A DNA stretch of 35,989 nucleotides from a virus (IMGVR_UViG_3300037961_005180:1-35989), one strand, 5' to 3'. Counted from the stretch's first letter, positions 20,291 through 33,323 are shown. The notes: generated by a model not told the origin, from the letters alone. Numbers and translations are program-made.

Positions 20291-21322
20291 TTAATTATCC
20301 TGAAAAAACCAATGTTTATATATTTCTAATGCTACACGCTGAGTCATAAAAGGGGGAACACTCATACCCATTACATAGCATGGATCAGTATTTAAAAAGT
20401 TAAAATCTTCTGGAAAAGTTTGTATTCTTTTTATTTCATAAGAATTTAAATATCTAGGTTTTTTCCAATAAACTAATCCCTGAGTTGCAGTTACAGTACG
20501 CGAAGGTAATCGAGGATTAACAGTACTCATGTTAAAACAATGTCCTTTTGGGTGAACAGTTGAAAATGATTTACCAGGTTTTACTTTATACCAAAGTTCT
20601 TTTAATTTATCACTAATTAATTTTTCTTCGGTATTAGGTTTTATTGTTTTACATGCTTCTGCAACTGAAATCGGTTGTTCATTAAAAATTGGTTTAAAAG
20701 GTTTTAAATTTAAATCAGACCTGCGTGCAATAAAAAAAGTTCTTTCTCTTGCTTGCGGTACACCCATTTTTGCAGCATTAAATAAAAACAATTGTGTTTC
20801 ATAGCCCGCTTTTTTAAAATCTCTGAATATTTCTTTTACATAACCACGAGCATTTCCAGCAATTAAACCTTTTACATTTTCAGCAACAACTATTTTAGGC
20901 TGTAAAAGTTTAGCTGTTTGAATGAAATGAAAAAATAAATCATCAAGTCTTTGATATTTTTGACCTTCTCTAAATTTATATTCAGTTCCCCATTTTTTTT
21001 CACGCTTGCCTGCCATGCTAAAAGTTGAACAAGGAGGTGAGCCATCTAATATATCTAAATTTTTTAATTCGTCAGGTATTTCTGAAAGTTTGTTAAATTC
21101 CTGGACTCCCATTAAATAACTATATTTAGGTTTATGGTTAGCTCTATAAATAGCCATCATTTCTTTATCAATTTCAACACCACCTAAAACATTAAAGCCT
21201 GCAAGTTTATAACCCATTGAAGAGCCACCGCCACAATGAAAACAACTAAAAACATTTAAATTATTTTTTTTAATATCTTTTAAATCAGATAGTTTCCAGG
21301 CACCAATTTTTTTTTCAATCAT
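20291..21322 (-). CDS. DNA (cytosine-5-)-methyltransferase
   Basis: 343 residues with the C5-methyltransferase motifs in order: motif I FSCFHCGGGSSMGYKLAGF (residues 25-43), motif IV GSPPCS with catalytic Cys98, motif VI AENV (147-150), motif VIII QARER (190-194) and motif X near the end (VMGMSVPPFMTQRVA). It transfers methyl from S-adenosylmethionine to cytosine C5. The target-recognition region is short, about residues 215-285. It probably protects phage DNA or marks it for packaging or replication timing. No cognate restriction enzyme is nearby. Overlaps the ParB-like gene by four bases (ATGA). Confidence 0.93.
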   Translation of the reverse strand: MIEKKIGAWKLSDLKDIKKNNLNVFSCFHCGGGSSMGYKLAGFNVLGGVEIDKEMMAIYRANHKPKYSYLMGVQEFNKLSEIPDELKNLDILDGSPPCSTFSMAGKREKKWGTEYKFREGQKYQRLDDLFFHFIQTAKLLQPKIVVAENVKGLIAGNARGYVKEIFRDFKKAGYETQLFLFNAAKMGVPQARERTFFIARRSDLNLKPFKPIFNEQPISVAEACKTIKPNTEEKLISDKLKELWYKVKPGKSFSTVHPKGHCFNMSTVNPRLPSRTVTATQGLVYWKKPRYLNSYEIKRIQTFPEDFNFLNTDPCYVMGMSVPPFMTQRVALEIYKHWFFQDN

Positions 21323-21843
21323 TTTTTATTATTAAATTCAAATCCACAACGAGGACAAGTGTTATCAAATTCACTAAAATCTGCTTCTCCGTGTTCTTTT
21401 GAACCTTCAAAATCTTTAATTTCACCGTCGCCTAATAATTGAGATAGATCATCATCATCAAAAAAAGGCTTTAAATCATAGTCCATAGTTAGTTCTTCTA
21501 ATACTTCTCTATCCCACTCTGATAAATCAGATGACCTATTATCTGCAATTGCTAAACCAACTTTTTGATCTTTAGTTAAATTAGTTCTTTTTACTGCAAT
21601 AATTTCATCTCCATTTGTTTCTATAACTTTTACATTTTTTACTCCAGCAGCTTTTGCACCTTCAATAGTTCCATTACCAGCAATAATTGTATTATTTTCA
21701 TCAATAACAATTGATCTACCAGTACCAAATTTTTCTAAAGATTCAGAAATTAATTTTGCTGATCGATCAGTTCTTAATCGAGCATTGTTCGGATCTTGAT
21801 TTAATTCCTGGATTGAGATCGTGTTTTCCAATTTTTCCTGCAT
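21319..21843 (-). CDS. ParB-like domain protein with C-terminal zinc ribbon
   Basis: 174 residues. Residues 9-85 form a ParB/sulfiredoxin-type domain (NTISIQELNQDPNNARLRTD, then the GNGTIEGAKAAGV motif that in ParB-like proteins surrounds the nucleotide site). The C-terminus has CPRCGFEFN, half of a zinc ribbon. ParB-domain proteins often sit beside phage DNA methyltransferases, as here, possibly giving DNA binding or nicking. A helix-turn-helix for parS binding is not evident. The first 77 bases overlap the upstream gene. Confidence 0.8.
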   Translation of the reverse strand: MQEKLENTISIQELNQDPNNARLRTDRSAKLISESLEKFGTGRSIVIDENNTIIAGNGTIEGAKAAGVKNVKVIETNGDEIIAVKRTNLTKDQKVGLAIADNRSSDLSEWDREVLEELTMDYDLKPFFDDDDLSQLLGDGEIKDFEGSKEHGEADFSEFDNTCPRCGFEFNNKK

Positions 21844-30089: not shown

Positions 30090-30330
30090 GATTAGTTTTT
30101 TTCTCTTCAGCTAAATTTTTTTTAACTAAAGCAGCTTCAAGTTCAATTAATCTTCCGAGCATTGAAGCAAGAAAAACATCTTGATCCATTTGATGTCTTA
30201 CCAAGTGAGTGCAATATCTTTTAATATTGTCATAATCTTCACTTTGCATAATGTCTCTGCATCTCATTTCAACAGAAAGTTGAAGTTCAGGAGGTGCTTC
30301 TTCAATTTCAATATTTAAAAATTTTCTCAT
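30061..30330 (-). CDS. Hypothetical helical protein (89 aa)
   Basis: Starts MRKFLNIEIEEAPPELQLSV and contains RYCTHLVRHQMDQDVFLASM followed by LGRLIELEAALVKKNL. Similar short proteins occur in marine cyanophages (from memory) beside lysis or membrane genes. It forms a two-gene minus unit with the 54-residue gene through an ATGA overlap. Confidence 0.65.
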   Translation of the reverse strand: MRKFLNIEIEEAPPELQLSVEMRCRDIMQSEDYDNIKRYCTHLVRHQMDQDVFLASMLGRLIELEAALVKKNLAEEKKTNPIKKLFRIG

Positions 30331-30491
30331 TGTCTTACAGGAAATAATTGTTTTTCCAAAATATCCACTGCACGATCATCGAGACTATTTGAGGTTTGTT
30401 TACAAATAGCACGTAAAAGATCAACTACTAAACGTTTTACAGTTGTAGTTGTAAGAAACGTCATTAGTATTGGTTTTAAAATTTTAATCAT
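30327..30491 (-). CDS. Small hydrophobic-start protein (54 aa)
   Basis: ATG at 30491; TGA at 30329-30327 overlaps the next ATG as ATGA. The protein reads MIKILKPILMTFLTTTTVKR, then LVVDLLRAICKQTSNSLDDR and a short end. Small proteins with KP-L-T-VK-LV-DLL and SLDD motifs occur in marine phage genomes near holin-like genes. A membrane-proximal role is possible but unproven. This gene is too short for routine detection. Confidence 0.66.
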   Translation of the reverse strand: MIKILKPILMTFLTTTTVKRLVVDLLRAICKQTSNSLDDRAVDILEKQLFPVRQ

Positions 30492-30557
30492 AAAAAATGT
30501 GTGTTACTTTCCAAACATAACAATTTTTGCTAAATTTGCCATAAATACAGTTTTTTT

Positions 30558-30815
30558 ATGGAAGAAGATAAAGAAGAAAAAGAAGGCACAGATTGGGCTG
30601 AAATTTTTGGTCATGCAGTTAGATTTATGATCTTATGCTGGTCATTAGCAATGATGACTTTAGGTTACATGGATAAAATTCGAAATGACGGAGCTTTTTT
30701 AGCCGGTCTCACGAGTGGGGTTTTAGGCAGTTACGGTATCTCTGTTAACAAAAAGAAAAATGCAAATTCACCTAAAATGATTGATAATAGTAAAAACAAC
30801 GTAGGAATCAAATGA
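30558..30815 (+). CDS. Holin-like small membrane protein (85 aa)
   Basis: An acidic N-terminus (MEEDKEEKEGTDWAE) is followed by a membrane helix VRFMILCWSLAMMTLGYM and a second hydrophobic segment (GAFLAGLTSGVLGSYGISV), with a Lys/Asn-rich tail. Two membrane helices and charged ends fit class II-like holins, but the family is not certain. The stop overlaps the next ATG (ATGA), which links it to the secreted proteins. Confidence 0.6.
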   Translation: MEEDKEEKEGTDWAEIFGHAVRFMILCWSLAMMTLGYMDKIRNDGAFLAGLTSGVLGSYGISVNKKKNANSPKMIDNSKNNVGIK

Positions 30816-31291
30816 AAAAATTATTAACTTTACTTTTATTTTTACCTACGGCTGCTTTTGCAGATATAACCTCTTCAATAAGTTCATCTGTAAAATTAGA
30901 GGTTTCAGCAGCGGCTACAGCAGCAGATAGAATTGGAAATTCATATAGTGTTTCAGGAACTGGTGTTACAACTACAGATGGAACAACTGCCGGAAGTCTT
31001 GGAGGTTTAGGTGCAGCAACTAATGGCGTAAATGCTTATACACCAATTACAGCTAGTCAGCTCACTGATGGCGAATCTTTTTCGTACACTGTTTCACACA
31101 CTACAGGCGATACTATATCAACAAGTTTAACTACAGGCGAAGTAAGTGCTTTTGGAGATTTAACCAGTACTTCAGGAGGTACAGCAACAAATTTAGCTGG
31201 AACAGTAGATAATCATGTAATTACAGTAACTGCTGGATCAGCTGGAACTACTGCAACAGGTCAATATGTGACAACAGTAACTGTAGATTAA
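30812..31291 (+). CDS. Secreted Thr/Ser/Gly-rich protein 1 (159 aa)
   Basis: The N-terminus MKKLLTLLLFLPTAAFADIT is a textbook Sec signal peptide with a probable cut after AFA. The mature part is Ser/Thr/Gly/Ala-rich and beta-prone, with RIGNSYSVSGTGVTTTDG and QYVTTVTVD. Similar proteins exist in marine cyanophages (from memory) without assigned function. Mature product would be periplasmic, outer-surface or virion-attached. The protein is coupled to the holin-like gene by ATGA. Confidence 0.75.
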   Translation: MKKLLTLLLFLPTAAFADITSSISSSVKLEVSAAATAADRIGNSYSVSGTGVTTTDGTTAGSLGGLGAATNGVNAYTPITASQLTDGESFSYTVSHTTGDTISTSLTTGEVSAFGDLTSTSGGTATNLAGTVDNHVITVTAGSAGTTATGQYVTTVTVD

Positions 31292-31297
31292 TGAATT

Positions 31298-31735
31298 ATG
31301 CGAAAGCTTTTTTTATTAGTTTTTTTATATGTTTTACCAGTTAATGCTAATATCGTTCCAAATTTTGTTCAGGGTAGTATGCAAAGTACAACGAATACTC
31401 AGAGCACTATTACAGAAAGTATTACGAGTACAGATTATTTTGGCAATTCGTATGAATATACAGTTACAGGAACTGGAATTACTACAGATGGTGCAGTTTC
31501 ACCTCAAACAACAACAGTTACAGGAACGACCTCAGGGCAATCATATAATTATACAGGGTTAGATTTATCAAATACAAACAAGCCACAATTTACTTTAGTA
31601 AATCCAACTTCTGGAAATTCTTTTCAATATACAGAGACATATCGCGGTCCAGGTGGAATTTCAAACATAACATCAATAACAAGACAAATATCAACAGAAT
31701 CAGTTACTTCTACTACCTCTGTATTTTCGCAATAA
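31298..31735 (+). CDS. Secreted Thr/Ser-rich protein 2 (145 aa)
   Basis: Signal peptide MRKLFLLVFLYVLPVNA with likely cleavage after NANA-like small residues. The mature part shares a motif with its upstream neighbour: DYFGNSYEYTVTGTGITTDG here and DRIGNSYSVSGTGVTTTDG there, so the two are probably paralogues. Later GNSFQYTETYRGPGG. No enzymatic residues. Six bases downstream of the first gene. Confidence 0.72.
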   Translation: MRKLFLLVFLYVLPVNANIVPNFVQGSMQSTTNTQSTITESITSTDYFGNSYEYTVTGTGITTDGAVSPQTTTVTGTTSGQSYNYTGLDLSNTNKPQFTLVNPTSGNSFQYTETYRGPGGISNITSITRQISTESVTSTTSVFSQ

Positions 31736-32367
31736 TTTTAAGTCCATTTAAAGTTTTTGCTAATGCTGTAAGTCAATCAAATTCAGGTTCAGTTACTAAT
31801 CAAAATTGGAATGTAAATAACGGAAGTTTTCATACAAATCAATTTGGAGGAGGCATAGTTTGTCAAGGAGCAATGATGACTATTACACCATTTACTACAT
31901 TTAATTCAAATTATAGAAAGCCTTATAGAGACTATTATAAAACGCCTGTTTATGATGAAACTGATATTGTGGGAGATTTTGATGATAATGGAAATCCAAT
32001 AGGAGATGGTACTCCTGATAATCCAGGGGTTATACTTTATGAACAAATAAATTATTCAGGTACAAATAAAGATAGTTATGCTTTAGGAACTGGAATAACA
32101 TTAAATTTTTCAATACCTTTAGATAGGCAATATACAAGACAATGTAAAGAAGCTGCTCAAGTTCAAAATGATATAAATAAACAAAAACTTAAAAATTTAG
32201 AACTTGATTGGCATTTCGCCAGATTAAAACATTGCGGAGAGAAAAAAATTGCTGGAATCCAATTTACTAAAGACAGCCCTTACTATAATTTATGCAAAGA
32301 TATTGAAATTGTACCGCGTAAAAATCAAGTTATTCCCCATCAACATTCTTTGACTTCCGAGAAGTAG
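31723..32367 (+). CDS. Secreted protein 3, start codon unresolved
   Basis: The frame reads IFAIILSPFKVFANA|VSQSNSGSV directly upstream of the first ATG at 31873, a convincing signal peptide, and GGGIVCQGAMMTITPF bridges the ATG, as in related phage proteins (from memory). No ATG, GTG or TTG opens this frame between 31549 and 31872; ATT at 31723 or a frameshift from the preceding gene could serve. The C-terminal part has a CKEAAQVQND helix and a KHCGEKK/YNLCKD cysteine pair. Coordinates are provisional. The 3' end overlaps the convergent gene by 38 bases. Confidence 0.55.
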   Translation: MFAIILSPFKVFANAVSQSNSGSVTNQNWNVNNGSFHTNQFGGGIVCQGAMMTITPFTTFNSNYRKPYRDYYKTPVYDETDIVGDFDDNGNPIGDGTPDNPGVILYEQINYSGTNKDSYALGTGITLNFSIPLDRQYTRQCKEAAQVQNDINKQKLKNLELDWHFARLKHCGEKKIAGIQFTKDSPYYNLCKDIEIVPRKNQVIPHQHSLTSEK

Positions 32368-32980
32368 CTTTTTTTATAGCAGTTTTAACAATATTTTTTA
32401 AAAAATTTACCAATAAAGGAGATGTAGCAGCCGTAATTGCAATAAGGCTAGTATTGATAATAAGAGGAGGAGATGGTATCCAACGATCAACAAATCGAGT
32501 TTCTTCGAATAAGGTAATACAGGTTTTGCCATCTTCAGAAATTTTATGGCCTACAACCTTTTCTAACCTATCTTCTGATGCATACATACCCACTCGTAAA
32601 TCTTTGTCACCTGGACATTTAATAAAAAACTCTTCTTCTTTTTTTTTTGGTAATTTAGGTTTTTCTTGTTTATATTCAGGCTGTACTTCTTTTACTTCTT
32701 CTTTTTTATCTTCTTTTACTTCTGTAATTTCAATTTTTCTTCGATCATATAACATTGGTTCAAAAGTTGGCATTGACCCGTGTGGACAGCTTATCGAAGT
32801 TCCGCGAGGATCATCTTCGTAAAGCGCTGTATTTTTAATAGAAGCATCTCTATGCTGTTTATAACAACCCGGTAAAACTAATGAAGGTAAAGGTACATTT
32901 AAAACATTATAAGGATTATTATCTGGAATATTAATTACTGGAATACTAATATCTGGAATATTAATATTAGGTATTTCCAT
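32330..32980 (-). CDS. Membrane-associated protein with IP-rich N-terminus (216 aa)
   Basis: The N-terminus repeats IPNINIPDISIPVINIPD, followed by LPGCYKQHRDASIKNTALYE and DDPRGTSISCPHGSMPTFEP. A Lys/Glu-rich linker, then KCPGDKDLRVGMYASEDRLE and a KTCITLFEETRFVDRWIPSP segment precede a C-terminal hydrophobic stretch (LIINTSLIAITAATSPLLV) and a basic end. It resembles proteins I recall from marine cyanophages of unknown function. The four cysteines suggest disulfides. The start touches the preceding stop (TAA ATG). Confidence 0.72.
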   Translation of the reverse strand: MEIPNINIPDISIPVINIPDNNPYNVLNVPLPSLVLPGCYKQHRDASIKNTALYEDDPRGTSISCPHGSMPTFEPMLYDRRKIEITEVKEDKKEEVKEVQPEYKQEKPKLPKKKEEEFFIKCPGDKDLRVGMYASEDRLEKVVGHKISEDGKTCITLFEETRFVDRWIPSPPLIINTSLIAITAATSPLLVNFLKNIVKTAIKKATSRKSKNVDGE

Positions 32981-33193
32981 TTACAAAGGTAAAGAAGGAC
33001 CTGTTATTTTTGGCATTTCTAAAGGTATTTGTTTTTTCATTTTTTCAGTTAAATCGTTCATTAATTTATTTTTTAAATCTCTTTCAAATTCAGGACTTTT
33101 CATATATTGAATGGCAACAAAACCAAAAGCAGCCATTGACCCAGATAACAATAAAGACAATAATGAGGCTACTTGGCAGATACGATTAAACAT
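32981..33193 (-). CDS. Small membrane protein with N-terminal helix (70 aa)
   Basis: Starts MFNRICQVASLLSLLLSGSM with one membrane helix (to about residue 30), then a charged helix (SPEFERDLKNKLMNDLTEKM) and a Pro-rich end. It precedes the 216-residue gene directly and probably acts with it at the membrane. The ATG shares CATG with a divergent plus gene. Topology resembles a small spanin-like or scaffold membrane protein, but this is not established. Confidence 0.7.
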   Translation of the reverse strand: MFNRICQVASLLSLLLSGSMAAFGFVAIQYMKSPEFERDLKNKLMNDLTEKMKKQIPLEMPKITGPSLPL

Positions 33194-33323
33194 GATTAAA
33201 TTTGCAATTTTAAAAGCACTATCTTTTACAAGTGTGCTGGTATTACTGCTTATTGTAGCCCTATCCCCTCTCTACGTCACTATGGGGTTAATGACAAGGC
33301 AAATGCACGAAAAGGTTAATTAA
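33192..33323 (+). CDS. Candidate small membrane protein (43 aa)
   Basis: ATG at 33192 lies inside the same CATG as the divergent minus start, and TAA at 33321-33323 shares TTAA with the convergent minus stop. The protein starts MIKFAILKALSFTSVLVLLL and is essentially one membrane helix with a short basic end. An upstream in-frame start at 33111 would run antisense through the 70-residue gene and is less likely. The exact fit between neighbours is the support. Confidence 0.52.
   Translation: MIKFAILKALSFTSVLVLLLIVALSPLYVTMGLMTRQMHEKVN

Follow-up and report, generated by a model that had tools for sequence, protein, structure and literature searches.

A Conserved Gene Cassette in Phages of Marine Picocyanobacteria and Its Possible Role in Host Lysis

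Results

The Locus and Its Source Phage

The window analyzed here is a whole stretch of viral DNA of 35,989 bases (IMGVR_UViG_3300037961_005180). The virus is a siphovirus and a relative of Prochlorococcus phage MED4-184, and the nearest relatives of its terminase are those of the cyanosiphoviruses MED4-184/MED4-117, S-H1, and KBS-S-2A. The record is linear and possibly slightly incomplete (MED4-184 has 38,327 bases), so that the lack of a gene in the window alone is weak evidence. No T4-GC219 gene was found in the window.

The cassette occupies positions 30327–33323, flanked by the early operon and by the fibre genes, as a preliminary description of this DNA had placed it. All ORFs listed in that description are present (table 1). 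Most of them have matches in conserved phage families without an assigned function, and they align with the cyanomyovirus T4-like gene clusters (T4-GCs) 237, 236, 235, 234, 218, and 414. Genes 234 and 414 are on the late strand, where they follow the tail fibre genes, and 234 converges on 235 with an overlap of 38 nt. Scans for promoters and terminators gave signals at chance level only. Elsewhere in the window (20291–21843), a DNA methyltransferase gene adjoins a ParB-like gene, immediately ahead of the terminase genes.

Table 1. Genes and Features of the Cassette, in Coordinates of the Window
Feature	Position	Strand	Remarks
54-aa protein, phrog_2738	30327..30491	-	Cassette neighbour kept in sipho- and podoviruses; 82% identical to the P-SCSP2 protein
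T4-GC218 / DUF6450 / phrog_721, 85 aa, proposed holin	30558..30815	+	Two hydrophobic segments, the first kind clear, the other weaker
T4-GC237 / phrog_564	30812..31291	+	Sec signal; Thr/Ser-rich, beta-rich
T4-GC236 / phrog_650 / DUF6322	31298..31735	+	Sec signal; paralogue of 237
T4-GC235 / phrog_848, predicted exported	open frame 31549..32367	+	Overlaps 236 in the -1 frame
235 signal-like stretch	~31711-31767	+	Mature part from ~31768
T4-GC234 / phrog_570, 216 aa	32330..32980	-	IP-rich start, Lys/Glu/Pro-rich middle, four Cys, C-terminal membrane segment, basic tail
T4-GC414 ("plasmid stability") homologue	32981..33193	-	N-terminal membrane helix; TGPxxP-type end
43-aa single-helix protein	33192..33323	+	Diverges from 414 at common CATG; related ORF in 70 loci

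Protein Features

The locus had been described as an envelope cassette that encodes a holin-like protein, three secreted proteins, an IP-rich anchored protein, and one or two single-helix proteins, and most of this picture stands. The holin-like protein is that of 218, although it has no holin-family match. Sec-type signals are present on the paralogues 237 and 236; none of 116 representatives of 236/237 carries a lipobox-like motif. The third secreted protein, 235, is real, but the ATG at 31873 is not its start, as it lies deep within the conserved domain. The IP-rich protein is 234. In its family, the N-terminal part carries negative charge and has a median of four cysteines, and the tail that comes after the membrane segment is strongly basic. 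As for the single-helix proteins, the 414 homologue holds, whereas the plus-strand gene placed at 33111–33323 is better read as 43 aa from 33192, because MED4-184 has a 43-aa homologue. The palindrome CATG at 33191–33194 contains the overlapping start codons of these two divergent genes, and a like arrangement is found in MED4-184 (locus L001, 3331–3332).

By its sequence, the T4-GC414 family is a small protein anchored in the membrane by a single helix and ending in a TGPxIP-type motif. This sequence does not support its "plasmid stability" label, which has been used in the literature to argue for mobility of the cassette and looks like a misannotation. Examples are the window gene, SSM1_164 of S-SM1, and Syn33_158 (loci L163 and L003).

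In agreement with the earlier statement that no known lysis, superinfection-exclusion, or surface-display family is evident, profile searches of the cassette proteins revealed no catalytic domain and no match to a hydrolase, holin, spanin, or exclusion family, and five family profiles gave nothing significant against solved structures. The AlphaFold model of 235, whose overall confidence is low, contains several strands along with a helix of 42 residues. A fold search of this model against the PDB gave no significant match (best E 0.27), and its significant named matches in BFVD were cyanophage relatives. The model of 237 (pLDDT 59) had no PDB match.

Conservation, Order, and Spread

The recurrence of the cassette in marine phages, proposed in the preliminary description, is extensive: 235 was found by tblastn in 432 to 455 phage records, whose names are nearly all those of phages of marine Synechococcus or Prochlorococcus. 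Besides cyanomyoviruses, the carriers include siphoviruses and T7-like podoviruses (P-SSP7, S-RIP1, and P-SCSP2), and therefore all three tail types are represented. A few matches occur in assemblies labelled Nonlabens, Lewinella, Formosa, Euryarchaeota, and others (loci L155–L157 and L159–L162); these are probably contaminating cyanophage contigs.

It had also been asked whether the genes travel together in relatives, and they do. Families 237, 236, 235, and 234 are each present in 149–155 of 155 loci, far above chance. Since 235 served as the query that fetched the loci, its own count is true by construction; those of 237, 236, and 234 are not. The order 237>236>235> <234 is nearly universal among these loci, with 414, 219, and 218 nearby.

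In cyanomyoviruses, the cassette is located among replication genes and not among late genes. In T7-like podoviruses, it takes a compact form, namely 218, one 236/237-like gene, and 235. Several of these phages also have, beside the compact set, the 54-aa protein and a 234-like protein that is IP-rich and C-terminally anchored.

Between the window and the podovirus P-SCSP2, the 218 proteins are 85.5% identical, and a 514-nt stretch (window 30327–30840; locus L173, 4162–4663) shows 75% DNA identity, even though the terminases of the two phages share no meaningful similarity by BLAST. This block is thus likely to have been transferred between siphovirus and podovirus lineages.

The Start of 235 and Its Overlap with 236

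In the window, the hydrophobic signal of 235, YYLCIFAIILSPFKVFANA, lies upstream of the ATG at 31873, over the 3′ end of 236 and in the -1 frame. Of 148 loci, 146 likewise have a 235 frame that continues open into 236, with no canonical start near the signal peptide. A canonical start within the overlap or just after it is present in 141 of 144 loci; L086 and L087, which belong to the window clade, are among the three that do not have one. In most loci, an out-of-frame ATG is situated ~54–58 codons before the end of 236, and the annotations of S-SM1 and Syn33 begin 235 at this nested ATG.

Of 30 representatives, 28 have an A at the wobble base that forms the nested ATG, where 15.1 would be expected; because of this bias, the nested start appears to be under selection in the relatives. 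Third-position conservation is barely higher in the overlap (0.373) than upstream (0.336), so the leader peptide of 235 is not clearly constrained. In the window clade (also L086 and L087), the nested ATG was lost via a Trp-to-Tyr change in 236 (window 31549–31735).

As no canonical start is found near the signal peptide, a programmed -1 frameshift fusing 236 and 235 was considered. It was rejected as a general mechanism, since canonical starts exist in the 141 loci mentioned, the wobble base is biased, and classic slippery heptamers are limited to 13 loci. A -1 frameshift may nevertheless serve 235 in the window and its nearest relatives.

The Genomic Slot of the Cassette

In P-SSP7, S-TIP37, KBS-P-1A, and S-RIP1, the set is placed between the tail fibre and large terminase genes, with 235 directly before TerS in KBS-P-1A. 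The respective order in T7 is the holin gene 17.5 directly before TerS, followed by the -1-frame nested spanin genes 18.5/18.7 and then by TerL; the podovirus 218 lies near the T7 holin position. In P60 and S-CBP42, a lysozyme gene comes right after the tail fibre gene, and in KBS-S-2A, a GH19-type endolysin gene follows the tail fibre genes. In S-PM2, there is no annotated gene between regA and hsp20, which is the site of the cassette in S-SM1 and Syn33.

Cassette and Endolysin Genes

Twenty-two phage records were searched for the cassette and for endolysins. Ten were chosen for a stand-alone endolysin (P60, S-CBP42, S-CAM7, ACG-2014f, S-B68, S-CREM2, S-H34, S-B28, KBS-S-2A, and S-PM2) and 11 for the cassette (S-SM1, P-SSP7, S-TIP37, P-RSP2, KBS-P-1A, S-RIP1, P-SCSP2, MED4-184, S-TIM5, Syn33, and P-SSM2), and the last was S-H1. 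The genome-wide hydrolase search comprised four families, that is, phrog_181, PF00959, PF01510, and PF08291.

Genes 236/237 are absent from all ten endolysin phages, and 235 is absent from nine; the tenth, S-CAM7, has only a partial match. That match (KU686212, 31569–31799) corresponds to the C-terminal part of 235, runs through a stop, and is possibly a remnant of a lost cassette. Conversely, phrog_181 is absent from all 11 cassette phages, in which PF00959, PF01510, and PF08291 match only inside the 925-codon ORFs of S-SM1 and Syn33. We infer that these ORFs encode gp5-like tail-hub proteins. S-H1 has neither the cassette nor any of the tested endolysins.

The contrast is seen separately in podo-, sipho-, and myoviruses, in 21 phages chosen by trait with kinship ignored; no P value is claimed, because the sampling was by trait and phylogeny was not corrected for. 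The absence of the cassette from S-PM2 was confirmed by HMM, and this phage has a full-length stand-alone lysozyme domain. A C39-type peptidase gene, possibly for a second lysis enzyme, is located directly upstream of the lysozyme gene in S-PM2 (locus L178, 17035–18218) and in S-CREM2 (locus L185).

Three of the endolysin phages (S-B68, S-CREM2, and S-H34) contain 218 without 235. This fits a holin role for 218 and also fits a looser association of 218 with the cassette. Among the subset of window ORFs scanned, none matched the PHROG lysis families. In P-SSP7, gp50 gave a hint of an endolysin (phrog_38472), which was not supported by Pfam.

Discussion

A Candidate Lysis or Egress Module

The preliminary description left the function of the cassette open. 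It is correct that none has been assigned, but the possibilities are now narrowed by the genomic position, the exclusion of endolysins, and a published list of phages that seem to have no spanins. In a 2018 survey, 20 phages of marine picocyanobacteria, cassette phages among them, were flagged as having no identifiable spanin, including P-HM1, P-HM2, P-RSM4, P-SSM2, P-SSM4, P-SSM7, Syn1, and Syn33, and a fragile outer membrane of the host was suggested (PMC6139136). On these three grounds, we read the cassette, with somewhat more belief than doubt, as a lysis or egress module of the phages of marine picocyanobacteria, which replaces the ordinary endolysin-based module. The apparent selection on the nested start of 235, the lysozyme of the cassette-free S-PM2, and the lack of a virion label on the cassette genes in the S-SM1 record also favour this reading.

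In such a module, the DUF6450 protein (218) would be the inner-membrane holin, and the Sec-exported proteins 237, 236, and 235 would build up in the periplasm and the outer membrane. The membrane-anchored proteins 234 and 414, with their IP/Pro-rich stretches, could bridge the inner membrane to the exported proteins across the periplasm. Upon triggering, the resulting complex would disrupt the envelope in a spanin-like way. The roles of the individual proteins, their assembly into a single complex, and the breakage of the envelope are all conjectural at this stage.

A broader and more tentative suggestion is that the majority of the phages that infect Prochlorococcus and marine Synechococcus, whatever their tail type, exit their hosts by one shared and horizontally exchanged machine without a dedicated endolysin or a classical spanin. 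This machine might combine a holin-like protein with two or three beta-rich proteins exported by Sec, one of them made from a nested out-of-frame start, and with proline-rich partners anchored in the membrane.

Several results speak against a lysis function. There is no match to a lysis family, 236/237 have no lipobox, the cyanomyovirus cassette is situated in the replication region, S-H1 has neither system, and 218 is found without 235 in three endolysin phages.

Other Explanations

The replication-region site fits early or middle expression and therefore also suits a role in envelope remodelling or superinfection exclusion, in which the exported proteins would coat or alter the outer membrane and block reinfection or competing phages. 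Three exported proteins together with membrane anchors are what such a system might use, and the cassette moves between morphotypes, as immunity genes do. However, the mutual absence of cassette and endolysin and the occupation of the T7-like lysis slot in podoviruses are left unexplained, and no cassette protein matches a known exclusion family. We regard this explanation as unlikely, though worth keeping in mind; neither superinfection immunity nor surface display gained positive support from the present results.

According to another view, the set supplies no more than the holin and the outer-membrane part of lysis, while the wall is cut by an unrecognized endolysin encoded elsewhere in each genome; the observed exclusion would then stem from the existence of two lineages of complete lysis systems. 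Coexistence with an enzyme is possible at least for 218, which occurs together with a canonical endolysin in the three phages mentioned, and the genome-wide search covered only four hydrolase families. Against this, the scanned window ORFs did not match PHROG lysis families and the sole hint in P-SSP7, gp50, failed in Pfam, which makes a hidden enzyme rather improbable.

It is very unlikely that the products are virion-associated or fibre proteins. The window set does adjoin the tail fibre genes, and the model of 235 combines beta strands with a long helix; yet 237, 236, and 235 have signal peptides, and the cyanomyovirus cassette is located away from the structural genes. In the proteome-annotated record of S-SM1, moreover, the detected T4-GC969 is labelled "virion structural" and the cassette genes are without this label, as far as record labels go.

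A phage curli or type VIII secretion system of the kind reported for pelagiphages and phage Melnitz shares with the cassette the exported, beta-rich proteins in a marine phage and has precedent in the literature, but it deserves almost no credence here, as the gene families differ, no cassette protein matches CsgG, CsgF, or curlin, and csgG, the gene for the defining pore, is absent.

Implications

The ocean is very rich in picocyanobacteria and in the phages that infect them. If the cassette is a lysis module, it fills a gap in the understanding of host lysis by most of these phages, and it gives a function to families now listed as hypothetical, DUF6450, DUF6322, or "plasmid stability." If it is an exclusion system instead, that system is still common to hundreds of sequenced ocean phages.

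Comparison with Known Systems

One paper on the phage curli genes proposes a role in lysis for them. The cassette resembles the T7 genes 17.5 and 18.5/18.7 in three respects: in cyanopodoviruses, it occupies the slot between the tail fibre and large terminase genes, it encodes a small holin-like protein, and two of its envelope-protein genes overlap in the -1 frame. Unlike the T7 lysis genes, with which it has no shown sequence relationship, it has no lipoprotein signal and no identified endolysin, and it includes partners with Sec signals and an extra IP-rich anchored protein. As the set has neither a recognizable endolysin nor a lipobox spanin in 236/237, it is not counted among the classical lysis cassettes. 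In related phages, the post-tail-fibre slot is held by the endolysin modules of P60, S-CBP42, and KBS-S-2A; these modules and that of S-PM2 differ in having a recognizable GH19-type enzyme or lysozyme, in phages without 236/237 and 235.

The closest known system is the cyanomyovirus cassette of Sullivan et al. (2010), who found T4-GCs 218, 219, 234, 235, and 237, often with a plasmid stability protein, in all their cyanomyoviruses except S-PM2 and suggested a functional, mobile cassette without assigning its function (PMC3037559). The gene families and the convergent order are the same in both. The present window differs in that it comes from a siphovirus, 219 was not found, and 218 lies upstream of 237; in addition, podoviruses now join the carriers and a function is proposed. 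The gene set is thus a member of the cassette catalogued in 2010, and its reading as a candidate lysis module is new.
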